A stretch of DNA of 64,000 nt from Xenococcaceae cyanobacterium MO_167.B27 (lineage in GTDB: Bacteria > Cyanobacteriota > Cyanobacteriia > Cyanobacteriales > Xenococcaceae), in contig JASJCP010000010.1 of assembly GCA_030065935.1 (NCBI GenBank), forward strand, positions 1-64,000, in the 5' to 3' direction. Numbering within the stretch: the stretch's first letter is position 1; each line of letters begins with the position of its first letter. The notes under the pieces are model-generated. The model saw only the letters and a list, made by a program, of their open reading frames with translations, searched no databases and was not told the DNA's origin. Positions 50,853 to 53,624 of this stretch are shown here, in pieces. Made by a program: the position numbers and the translations under genes.

Positions 50853-51518
50853 ATGTTACTCAGACCAGAACACCGTAACAAGTTAGACGAAACAGACGAT
50901 ACAGATTTTTACTCTATTCCTCGTTTTGTCACCCATGTAGATGAAGGGTTCATCGATCAATTGACTCAATTATATCGAGAAGAACTCACCCCTAATACTC
51001 GTATTTTAGACTTGATGAGTAGTTGGGTTTCTCACTTACCCGATGACATGGAATTTGACCATGTACAAGGTCACGGGATGAACCATGAAGAACTAGCCAA
51101 AAATCCGCAATTAGATGGCTATTTTCTCCAGAATCTCAATAAAAATCCCCAATTACCTTTAAAAGAAAACGATTTTGATGCAGTTTTAATTACTGTTTCC
51201 GTACAGTATTTACAGTATCCAGAAGCAGTATTTGCGGAAATATATCGTATCCTCAAGCCAGGAGGAAAGGTTATTGTCAGTTTTTCTAACCGAATGTTTT
51301 ACCAAAAAGCGATCGCACTTTGGCGGGATAACAGCGAAACTGGTCGAGTAGAATTAGTGAAAAAGTATTTTCAGGCTCTTCCTGGCTTTAGTACTCCTAA
51401 AATAGTGGCTCATCAATCTTCTGTCCCTGAATTTCTCCAAATGTTAGGATTAGCAGGAGCAGACCCTTTTTATGCTGTTATCGCGGAAAAAATGGTAGTT
51501 TTAACCACTAACTCATAA
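50853..51518 (+). CDS. Class I SAM-dependent methyltransferase
   Basis: This 221-aa protein has a methyltransferase core. Motif I is degenerate (TRILDLMSSWVSHLP in place of the usual GxGxG), followed by DFDAVLITVSVQYLQYPEAV (motif IV) and YRILKPGGKVIVSFSNRMFY (post-IV motif). It resembles UbiE/type-11 methyltransferases. Because motif I lacks glycines, SAM binding is not certain. ATG 50853 (MLLRPEH) is preferred over a TTG ten codons earlier. The 3' end overlaps the convergent parA by 11 bp. Confidence 0.75.
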   Translation: MLLRPEHRNKLDETDDTDFYSIPRFVTHVDEGFIDQLTQLYREELTPNTRILDLMSSWVSHLPDDMEFDHVQGHGMNHEELAKNPQLDGYFLQNLNKNPQLPLKENDFDAVLITVSVQYLQYPEAVFAEIYRILKPGGKVIVSFSNRMFYQKAIALWRDNSETGRVELVKKYFQALPGFSTPKIVAHQSSVPEFLQMLGLAGADPFYAVIAEKMVVLTTNS

Positions 51519-52095
51519 TTTCTTTCCCTACCGACTGATATCTTGACCACCCTATATGCGATCGCGGATCGGGATAGTCTTTAACAATTACTCCCTTGGC
51601 TGGCGATCGCTGAAATGCTACTAAAAGAGGAATATCAACTTTAAATAGAGGTAATTTGGCTTCTTCGAGGAATTTTCTCGCGGATCGACCATTGGTAGTA
51701 CGAGAATCTACCTTAGTTAGCAATACTTTATAGTTAGCTTTGAGTGGTTGTAGTAACTCCGCAGCTTTTATCGTAGTATCTAAATCCAGAGGATTAGGCG
51801 TAGTTGGTAAAATTAGCAAGTCGCTACCTTCTGCTAACTCCGCCAAATCTTCTGGTTCTGGTCTAGCTTGAGTGTCAATAATAATATGGGTAAACTTTTT
51901 AATTAATGCAGGAGAACCAGCCTGAGAAGCAACGTAAAAGGGCAATTTGTCTTCTTTCGACCAGACCAAAGCGGAACGATTTTTGTCAGCATCAATTAAT
52001 AAAGTGGGAGAAAAGCTTTGTAAATAAGCAGCCAAGTGAACTGCCGTTGTGGTTTTACCCACTCCTCCCTTCAAAGCCGTAATCGCAATAATCAT
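51508..52095 (-). CDS. ParA-family ATPase
   Basis: This 195-aa protein has the deviant Walker A KGGVGKTT (9-16) near the N-terminus, switch I LLIDADKNRSAL, and the Walker B-type THIIIDTQARPEPED. It matches small orphan ParA/MinD-like ATPases, which position cargo such as carboxysomes (McdA) or plasmids. No parB, mcdB or similar partner adjoins, so its cargo is unknown. ATG start at 52093-52095. Confidence 0.85.
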   Translation of the reverse strand: MIIAITALKGGVGKTTTAVHLAAYLQSFSPTLLIDADKNRSALVWSKEDKLPFYVASQAGSPALIKKFTHIIIDTQARPEPEDLAELAEGSDLLILPTTPNPLDLDTTIKAAELLQPLKANYKVLLTKVDSRTTNGRSARKFLEEAKLPLFKVDIPLLVAFQRSPAKGVIVKDYPDPRSHIGWSRYQSVGKEIMS

Positions 52096-52250
52096 GGGAT
52101 ACTCACGTCAATAACAAGGTAGTAGTAGTTTACCGAGAAGAAAGGGATTTAACTTGCAATGGATCACAAAATATTGTAGGTTTGTCAAAATTTTGTTACT
52201 TTATTTAATATAAATTTACATAATAAGCTCTAGAAAACTCTAAGTCTGGC

Positions 52251-52279
52251 TTATTGCTAAATTTGTCTGCTGTTACTAT
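52251..52279 (+). promoter_or_regulatory. Promoter of the candidate sRNA
   Basis: TTATTG (52251-52256), a 17-bp spacer and TACTAT (52274-52279) form a good sigma70-type promoter about 10 bp before the first hairpin of the candidate sRNA. Confidence 0.55.
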
Positions 52280-52285
52280 GGCAGT

Positions 52286-52356
52286 AGTATCAATGTTTCG
52301 CGTCAACATTGATTTCTCCTGAATCTTAGCCTCGGTATTACCGAGGTGTTTTTTTT
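52286..52356 (+). ncRNA. Candidate small RNA with two hairpins and intrinsic terminator
   Basis: A perfect 8-bp hairpin (TCAATGTT 52290-52297, AACATTGA 52305-52312) is followed by an unpaired CU-rich linker (TTTCTCCTGAATCTTAG). A terminator hairpin CCTCGG TATTA CCGAGG (52330-52346) then ends in eight T (52349-52356). The plan (two stem-loops around a CUCC-containing single-stranded stretch) is that of Yfr1, the cyanobacterial antisense-type sRNA, but the usual Yfr1 core ACUCCUCACAC is not present. The start is inferred from the promoter. No coding frame fits. Confidence 0.55.
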
Positions 52357-52385
52357 GCTTGGATGATAAAGTGATCGATATCTAA

Positions 52386-53624
52386 ATGGGAATTAGCTTA
52401 CCAAAATTTAAGTCTGAAATCTGGATTCTTGCTGGAGGAAGACTGTTGTCAGAGATCGGTACAGGATTTACTCTATTTTATGCGCCGATCTTTTTTGTGA
52501 ATCAGATTGGCATATCCTCAACCTTAGTAGGGTTGGCTTTGGGTAGTGGTTCAGTTTCGGGGGTTGTAGGGCGGTTTCTGGGGGGACAATGGGCTGATTC
52601 TCCTTCTTGGGGAAGAAGAAAAACCTTATTAATCTCTGCTGCTATTTCCGCCTTTGCTGATGTGTTTCTAGTTATGGCGGATAATTTTCCCCTATTAGTT
52701 GTGGGAAATATTTTGATGGGTTTGGGTGTAGGCTTTTATTGGCCAGCAACCGAAGCTGCTATTATTGACTTGACTAATCCCGAACAGCGCAATGAAGCCT
52801 TTGCCGTGACAAGATTGGCAGATAGTTTAGGATTAAGCTTGGGTGTGGTCTTGGGAGGGGCATTAATCGCGAATTTTGGCAATTATCGCGCTTTATTTGC
52901 CATAGACGGCGTTTCTTTTCTAATTTTCTTTGCCATTATCTATTTTGCGATCGCAGAAACTTATGAATTTTCATCTCAGTCAACAGCAGCTTCTAGTGGT
53001 TGGTTATTAGCATTCAGCGATCGCACCTTAATGATTTATGTTGTAGTAAATATTCTCTTTACCACCTATCTTTCCCAAGTACAAAGTACTCTACCTCTGT
53101 ATCTCAAAAACTTTGCAGGAGAAACCTCACAAGGATTATCAGAAAAAGTCATCAGTGGCTTATTTAGTTGGCATATTACCTTTGCTGCTATTTGTCAGTT
53201 ACCTATCGCCCGTTGGTTAAATAGTTTTAGTCGTATGCAAGCTTTAACTATTGCTTTGATTTTCTGGGGTGTAGGATTCTTCTGTGTTTGGCTAATTGGA
53301 ACATCATCTTATCCCCTAGTTTGGGCTATACTCGCCCTAGGGATTATGGCATTAGGAATGGTTGCTTATACTCCTTCTGCTTCCGCTTTTATTGCGGATA
53401 TCGCCCCAGAATCATTACGAGGAGTTTATTTATCGATTAATTCCCAGTGTTGGGCGATTGGTTATTTTATTGGACCAACCCTTGGAGGCTATGCTTTAGA
53501 CCAGTCCCCTAATGTTGTTAAAGGGTTTTGGTTGGGTTGCATGGCTTCAATTTTTTTAGGGATACTTATCTTACGCTATTTATCAAAAGTAGTTAAATCA
53601 GACATCCAAGATAATTTAAGCTAA
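52386..53624 (+). CDS. MFS transporter
   Basis: This 412-aa protein has about 12 hydrophobic segments and the MFS motif A (GGQWADSPSWGRRKTLL) between helices 2 and 3. A second, weaker copy lies between helices 8 and 9 (ARWLNSFSRMQALTIAL). The ATG follows the sRNA terminator by about 30 bp, so it is not part of that transcript. It probably exports a small hydrophobic compound; no specific substrate can be inferred. Confidence 0.88.
   Translation: MGISLPKFKSEIWILAGGRLLSEIGTGFTLFYAPIFFVNQIGISSTLVGLALGSGSVSGVVGRFLGGQWADSPSWGRRKTLLISAAISAFADVFLVMADNFPLLVVGNILMGLGVGFYWPATEAAIIDLTNPEQRNEAFAVTRLADSLGLSLGVVLGGALIANFGNYRALFAIDGVSFLIFFAIIYFAIAETYEFSSQSTAASSGWLLAFSDRTLMIYVVVNILFTTYLSQVQSTLPLYLKNFAGETSQGLSEKVISGLFSWHITFAAICQLPIARWLNSFSRMQALTIALIFWGVGFFCVWLIGTSSYPLVWAILALGIMALGMVAYTPSASAFIADIAPESLRGVYLSINSQCWAIGYFIGPTLGGYALDQSPNVVKGFWLGCMASIFLGILILRYLSKVVKSDIQDNLS

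Follow-up and report, generated by a model that had tools for sequence, protein, structure and literature searches.

Yfr1 and PsrR1 are the described small RNAs closest to the locus studied here. Yfr1 (RF01116) is about 65 nt long and consists of a hairpin, an unpaired CU-rich stretch and a terminator. It acts on ribosome-binding sites, and sbtA is a named target. PsrR1 (also SyR1; RF02701) is known from Synechocystis sp. PCC 6803 and Synechococcus elongatus, where its length is given as 131 nt (PMC6202907, PMC6091082). Its core, ACAUUGA-UU-CUCCU, is antisense to a Shine-Dalgarno sequence with the start codon, and the terminator stands close behind the core. The psrR1 gene is assigned to the RpaB regulon, in which an HLR1 box over the start site means repression (PMC13421787), and in Synechocystis RpaB permits its induction in high light (PMC12850537). 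The pairing of PsrR1 with psaL is described as 22 nt with two mismatches and covers the ribosome-binding site and the start codon; upon pairing, RNase E cuts 7 nt into psaL (PMC10989914).

The locus lies in a stretch of 64,000 nucleotides from Xenococcaceae cyanobacterium MO_167.B27, the whole of which is called the window. The family match, the homologous loci, the HLR1 boxes of the relatives and the complementarity to targets are all read directly from sequence. They make it very probable that the locus is a standalone psrR1 gene, which would be controlled by RpaB and would give a high-light RNA blocking photosystem I, phycobilisome and other photosynthesis mRNAs. The features are as follows.

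51508-52095, minus strand: divergent gene of a ParA-like ATPase (PF01656), the conserved neighbour
52174-52202, plus strand: alternative promoter, TTGTAG (52174-52179), 17-bp spacer and TACTTT (52197-52202), read by eye and in register with the relatives
52182-52211, plus strand: likely core promoter, TTGTCA, 18-bp spacer and TAATAT, called by the scan (9 of 12)
52195-52222, plus strand: HLR1-like array (RpaB box), GTTACTTT, TTAATATA and TTTACATA in 10-bp steps; the best 18-mer has 2 mismatches
52218-52356, plus strand: psrR1-like small RNA gene, likely transcript; the 3' end is the T-run, and the 5' end would lie at 52209-52218
52289-52313, plus strand: 5' hairpin of 9 bp in the predicted fold, 52289-52297 paired with 52305-52313
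52298-52304, plus strand: loop of the 5' hairpin, UCGCGUC; the hairpin is lineage-specific
52302-52324, plus strand: conserved core GTCAACATTGATTTCTCCTGAAT, antisense to Shine-Dalgarno sequence and start codon
52329-52356, plus strand: intrinsic terminator by scan and fold, with an 8-bp stem within 52329-52347 and eight T at 52349-52356
52386-53624, plus strand: downstream gene of an MFS transporter (PF07690), a neighbour only within the genus

The 9-bp hairpin, the CU-rich linker and the intrinsic terminator occupy 52286-52356 of the plus strand. The folding energy of this segment is -19.3 kcal/mol vs -9.2 kcal/mol for shuffled sequences (z -4.35), and none of 200 shuffles equals it. On its own the terminator is at the chance level (1 found in the scan vs 1.5 expected). 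The first-pass annotation had described a self-contained small RNA gene between divergent genes, and this is supported. Its CU-rich linker with CUCC is present (UUCUCCUGAAUCUUA), so is the terminator with an eight-T run, and the flanking genes are indeed divergent (ParA-like on the minus strand, MFS on the plus strand). The hairpin is perfect as described, but it has 9 bp rather than the 8 bp given.

No Rfam match at the gathering score was found in the whole window. Under permissive settings (E up to 10) the region 52100-52450 gave four matches, the best of which is PsrR1, at 52272-52351 over the full length of the model (35.2 bits, E 4.2e-5). The others are at the chance level and were rejected: Freshwater-2 on the minus strand (14.5 bits vs a cut-off of 49.9), Spot 42 (13.3 vs 80) and MIR8562 (12.4 vs 211). 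The window copy stays under the curated RF02701 cut-off (35.2 vs 42 bits). It is nevertheless filed as PsrR1, because homologues score over the cut-off and because the features of core, terminator and psaL pairing are found: ACAUUGA..UUCUCCU is followed by an intrinsic terminator, as in PsrR1, and the core GUCAACAUUGAUUUCUCCUGAAU is the antisense of a Shine-Dalgarno sequence plus start codon. By these sequence features the window RNA is a diverged PsrR1 copy below the Rfam cut-off, and a member of the family by descent. Apart from its score, it differs from the described RNA in having UU where the Rfam consensus has GU in the core and GAAU after it. Its gene stands beside ParA, not between fabF and hoxH as published (PMC2662882).

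A further difference is the 9-bp hairpin over half of the core, which occurs in some genera only. According to the fold, half of the core is hidden in the hairpin, while UUCUCCU stays unpaired. Among the 15 standalone loci of the family that were folded, six have it (the window, G002, G003, G008, G009 and G013; by eye, G-U pairs occur in G008 and G009). Since it is absent from the other nine, the hairpin is not defining for the RNA, and we rejected it as a defining, functional part.

The homologous loci were collected by a DNA search with the 121-bp element; at E up to 0.1 it found matches in 30 of 60 genomes, one of them that of the window. The matched stretches come from Xenococcus sp. PCC 7305, Pleurocapsa sp. 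CCALA 161, Waterburya agarophytonicola, Pleurocapsales LEGE 06147 and Xenococcaceae MAGs, among others; 9 of the 23 named ones are non-cyanobacterial by name, and about 4 chance matches are expected by arithmetic. Twelve of the 30 loci fetched were scanned with RF02701, and seven are over the cut-off (G004, G005, G011, G012, G013, G022 and L014, the last being a psb34-linked sister copy in G001). G004, G005 and G022 are over the cut-off and also beside ParA as in the window. GTCAACATTGATTTCTCCTGAAT is identical in 9 aligned loci, except that one A is missing in G009. A 15-nt core pattern is found in 20 of 27 family genomes vs 3 of 27 for the reversed control. This tally is not used as a number of PsrR1 genes, because some matches resemble ordinary start regions of the opposite strand or are without a terminator (doubtful examples are G006, G016 C7:2700391 and G026 C130). 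Two side observations were made on these loci. L025 (G014 C236) carries two tandem PsrR1-like elements about 200 bp apart, each with a core and a terminator-like stem. In G012, a HEARO RNA (L009:463-677, 150.1 bits) is located a few hundred bases from PsrR1.

The promoter given in the first-pass annotation, TTATTG-17-TACTAT, was not upheld: judged by eye, TTATTG agrees with TTGACA at only 2 of 6 positions, and it was not called in the promoter scan. These boxes are nearly unchanged in the same-genus genomes G002 and G003, where an insertion moves them about 50 and about 100 bp further from the core. Compared with G002 (L066), G003 (L067) has an extra insertion of about 50 bp between the boxes and the RNA, which resembles a small mobile repeat. 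A better promoter probably lies about 70 bp further upstream, within the imperfect HLR1, and the annotated one is probably internal to the transcript. The scan found 4 promoter-like sites vs 4.3 expected by chance; the weight of TTGTCA-18-TAATAT thus rests on the relatives. This promoter lies 9 bp past the register of TTGTAG-17-TACTTT.

The relatives were compared by scanning 260 bp upstream of the core in the 15 standalone loci with the HLR1 consensus KTTACAWW-N2-KTTACAWW (PMC13421787). An exact 18-bp HLR1 is found in seven loci (G004, G005, G011, G012, G017, G018 and G020). Among the others, G022 and G023 show one mismatch, the window and G009 show two, G008 shows three, and G002, G003 and G013 show four; the last four loci are at the shuffle level. 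The two mismatches of the window are equalled by 22 of 1000 mononucleotide shuffles. In eight loci (G004, G005, G011, G012, G017, G018, G022 and G023) the first half-site of HLR1, GTTACATT, holds the -10 box TACATT, with TTGnnn 17 bp upstream. The distance from HLR1 to the core is 199-254 bp in G017, G020, G022 and G023, so the RNAs of these four loci would be longer or have another start. In the loci of G061 and G101 the published SyR1 primer (PMC2662882) can be recognised by eye immediately after TTGACA-17-TACTAT, which supports the promoter register. As judged from the promoters of the relatives and from the length of PsrR1, the window transcript would be about 138-147 nt with its 5' end at 52209-52218. 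The window RNA and PsrR1 would then be alike in length (about 131-147 nt), and alike in having a promoter with an RpaB box, which in the window is an imperfect candidate. If the upstream promoter is right, the gene is not contained in 52251-52356 as annotated, and about 33-42 nt of its 5' end lie outside.

The first-pass annotation had also suggested targeting of ribosome-binding sites, and the CU-rich linker is suited to pair with them. The reverse complement of the core contains AGGAGAAATCAATG, i.e. a Shine-Dalgarno sequence with a start codon. With up to one mismatch this 14-mer has 22 sites in the 7.02-Mb genome, and the three exact ones are PsrR1 copies. Three of the other 19 are the start regions of psaL, petD and psaK. 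Three more precede ORFs of at least 100 aa that are unconnected with photosynthesis (L114 and the ABC-type L110 and L113), and the rest have short ORFs or none after them. Allowing up to two mismatches gives 226 sites vs 83 for the reversed pattern, a number to which ordinary Shine-Dalgarno sites contribute. The psaL gene was identified by PF02605 over its cut-off, although it is under the cut-offs of NCBIfam's own PsaL models; petD and psaK were identified by TIGR01156 and TIGR03049. The names cpcA, cpeA, apcB, apcD-like and psbB are our reading of the sequences within the PF00502 and PF00421 hits.

Duplex energies were calculated between 52299-52328 and start regions, with 308 start regions of the same genome as controls. 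No control is as good as cpeB (-29.3 kcal/mol), psaL (-28.0 kcal/mol) or psaK (-27.3 kcal/mol, with an assumed TTG start). For cpcB (-24.5 kcal/mol) one control is as good or better, and for petD (-22.9 kcal/mol) and psbB (-21.7 kcal/mol) two are. The ranks of psaK and petD are not independent tests, since it was a scan for the core's antisense that led to both genes. A second psaL (-18.7 kcal/mol) is matched or exceeded by 7 controls, the start regions of apcA, cpeA and apcB by 10-11, and that of the apcD-like gene by 206. The known targets psaJ, chlN and cpcA are unremarkable as partners (89, 42 and 124 of the 308 controls are as good or better). They were set aside as window targets, for which the energy ranks give no support, and this is a difference from PsrR1. 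Shuffles that keep TTCTCCT reach the psaL score in 0 of 150 cases and the score of the phycobilisome set in 0 of 150, and reach that of the literature set (psaL, psaJ, chlN, cpcA and psbB) in 10 of 150. Codons 2-3 of psaL, GACGCG, also pair with the loop letters CGCGUC. When the full 139-nt RNA is used and opening costs are counted, the order is kept, and the values are -20.3 kcal/mol for psaK, -16.2 for psaL and cpeB, -14.1 for petD and -10.5 for cpcB, and the weaker partners are apcA (-9.0), psaJ (-7.3) and chlN (-7.1). The predicted targets are thus psaL, psaK, cpeB, cpcB, petD and psbB. As for PsrR1, psaL, psbB and phycobilisome genes are among the best predicted partners.

The psaL pairing was followed through the family with 222 controls, which come from possibly overlapping loci, so that a few may count twice. 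Of 49 psaL matches, 30 had loci, and four PsaL fusions without a readable signature were removed, leaving 26 genes. Of the 26, 18 are in the best 5% of the controls if the ATG closest to the conserved motif is taken as the start; under a cruder rule, which takes upstream ATGs in some genes, 14 are. The pairing is absent in G004, G005, G009, G011 and G025 and intermediate in G007, G012 and G019.

These predictions bear on the possibility that the window gene is a PsrR1 relative with lost or altered function, either a decaying paralogue or an RNA with a narrower target set. Such a state could account for the sub-threshold score of 35.2 bits, the HLR1 that is imperfect in the genus and the hairpin over half of the core, and the genome does hold four other core-bearing copies, two of them over the cut-off. 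Against it stand the intact core, nearly identical among relatives, and the retention of the locus beside ParA across genera. ParA is divergent beside the element in 7 of the 11 standalone loci compared (the window, G002, G003, G004, G005, G018 and G022); in G012 it is further off, with one ORF inserted before the element, and beside the elements of G008, G009 and G013 it was not seen. Moreover, psaL, psaK, cpeB and cpcB fit the window core, though the sister copies share most of that core. We regard loss or change of function as very improbable.

The same comparison of 11 standalone loci bears on the downstream side. The MFS gene starts 30 bp past the terminator, and a terminator just ahead of its ATG at 52386 on the same strand would suit a cis-acting leader or attenuator of this gene. 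The MFS gene follows the element only in the window, G002 and G003. The next ORF is on the opposite strand in G004, G005, G009 and G013, a different gene is next in G008, G018 and G022, and the contig ends in G012. Conservation is highest in the core, which is antisense to the start regions of other genes and is not an anti-terminator. On this comparison of neighbours a leader of the MFS gene is very unlikely, and it was rejected.

The remaining suggestion, made in the first-pass annotation together with that of a separate small RNA, was a divergent Yfr1, i.e. a short two-hairpin RNA whose unpaired, CU-rich core acts on ribosome-binding sites; the plan of hairpin, CU-rich stretch with CUCC and terminator is indeed shared, but the core differs, no Yfr1 match appears in the window at the gathering score or in 52100-52450 up to E 10, where PsrR1 is found instead, the 5' hairpin is missing from 9 of the 15 family standalone loci, and the genome has its own intact Yfr1 (C18:18117-18180, 54.1 bits vs a cut-off of 38), so that with the PsrR1 homologues in hand this identity is scarcely credible and was rejected.

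A standalone psrR1 gene is thus the preferred reading. In low light, RpaB on the HLR1 boxes over the promoter and start site would block psrR1. In high light RpaB would leave, which would allow synthesis of an RNA of about 140 nt with its 3' end at the intrinsic terminator. In mRNAs for photosystem I, the phycobilisome and other parts of photosynthesis, the core of this RNA would pair with the Shine-Dalgarno sequence and the start codon. The pairing would stop translation and may open the message to cleavage by RNase E, which has been reported for psaL in Synechocystis. For the window locus, we infer transcription, RpaB binding and repression in this manner.

The genome of the window differs from those of the described PsrR1 in that sister copies follow psb34 and pgr5. 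RF02701 matches at least five places in it at E up to 0.1. The copies on C265 (43.6 bits) and C148 (43.4 bits) score above the window copy (35.2 bits), and the C101 copy is lower (31.9 bits). The match at C79:2986-3064 (25.3 bits) has no core and was discarded as a probable false hit. The element on C201 has the core, lacks the terminator and gives no RF02701 match, and the C101 element is not reported under stricter settings. The sister copies behind genes are the following.

C265:16470-16699: sister copy L061, directly behind psb34 (NF033486)
C148:32529-32800: sister copy L062, directly behind psb34 (NF033486)
C201:2565-3064: sister copy L065, behind psb34 and pgr5 (NF049860)

The C101 element (C101:33151-33230, L063) is a second standalone PsrR1-like element, with an HLR1 of one mismatch 58 bp before its core. 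The psb34 match of L061 has an in-frame TAA, whereas the PsrR1 element that follows scores over the Rfam cut-off, so the RNA may outlive the protein gene.

The arrangement is not confined to this genome. The 27 family genomes hold 95 psb34 genes that exceed the cut-off. At least 37 of them are followed on the same strand by an RF02701 hit (E up to 0.1), and these hits are drawn from at least 87 family hits. The distance from psb34 to the element is within 90 bp in at least 26 cases, 257-363 bp in at least 10 and 602 bp in at least one. By arithmetic, about 0.08 psb34-linked hits are expected by chance in the 3000 bp searched. At least 14 of the 27 genomes have psb34-linked elements, and 13 have none among the matches listed. 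Of the 14 control genomes, one (that of Escherichia coli) was also hit at E up to 0.1, with a score under the cut-off. The pgr5 gene stands between psb34 and the element in C201 and L039. Outside the family, 35 loci were compared, taking the best one or few per genome. In 10 of them psb34 is directly upstream:

L040, L044, L046, L175, L176, L179, L181, L186, L190 and L192: psb34-upstream loci outside the family

Short PGR5-like ends are upstream in 5 of the 35 (L037, L041, L178, L185 and L188), and 20 have neither psb34 nor a PGR5-like end. In a sample of the phylum under stricter filters, 51 of 386 genomes were hit at E 0.001, 47 of them over the cut-off, with up to five per genome. Under these settings none of the 14 control genomes was hit.

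Among 12 loci that were read, an exact HLR1 is located at most 60 bp before the psb34 start in L065 (C201), L198, L202, L205 and L222. It occurs both with and without a core behind the gene. Between psb34 genes with the element and without it no difference was found, in a comparison of 12 of 34 loci in which two genes stand twice and the elements of L198 and L222 were missed. In Synechocystis, pgr5 is described as an RpaB target that rises in high light like psrR1 (PMC12850537). In the open-licence literature, as far as its accessible text goes, no description of psb34- or pgr5-linked PsrR1 copies was found, and PsrR1 and psb34 were not found together there. As an analogy for the sister copies only, drawn without sequence comparison, ApcZ is a cyanobacterial small RNA derived from a 3' end (PMC8136909); the sister copies likewise sit in the 3' ends of photosynthesis-related genes. 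We lean slightly towards the view that PsrR1 is a dispersed module, consisting of a standalone RpaB-controlled gene and of elements in the 3' ends of psb34 and psb34-pgr5 mRNAs. One high-light transcript would then give a photoprotection protein and also release an RNA that silences photosystem I and antenna genes.

PsrR1 itself is a known cyanobacterial small RNA, and the window gene adds to it a diverged member missed by the Rfam cut-off. It also brings a testable set of predicted targets, with psaK, petD and cpeB beside psaL, psbB and cpcB. The arrangement of the sister copies matters more than the window gene. If the 3' elements are released as working RNAs, the making of protection proteins and the shutdown of antenna and photosystem I would be coupled on a single transcript. 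PsrR1, known in Synechocystis as a single small RNA gene, would then prove to be a small RNA that has settled in mRNA 3' ends.
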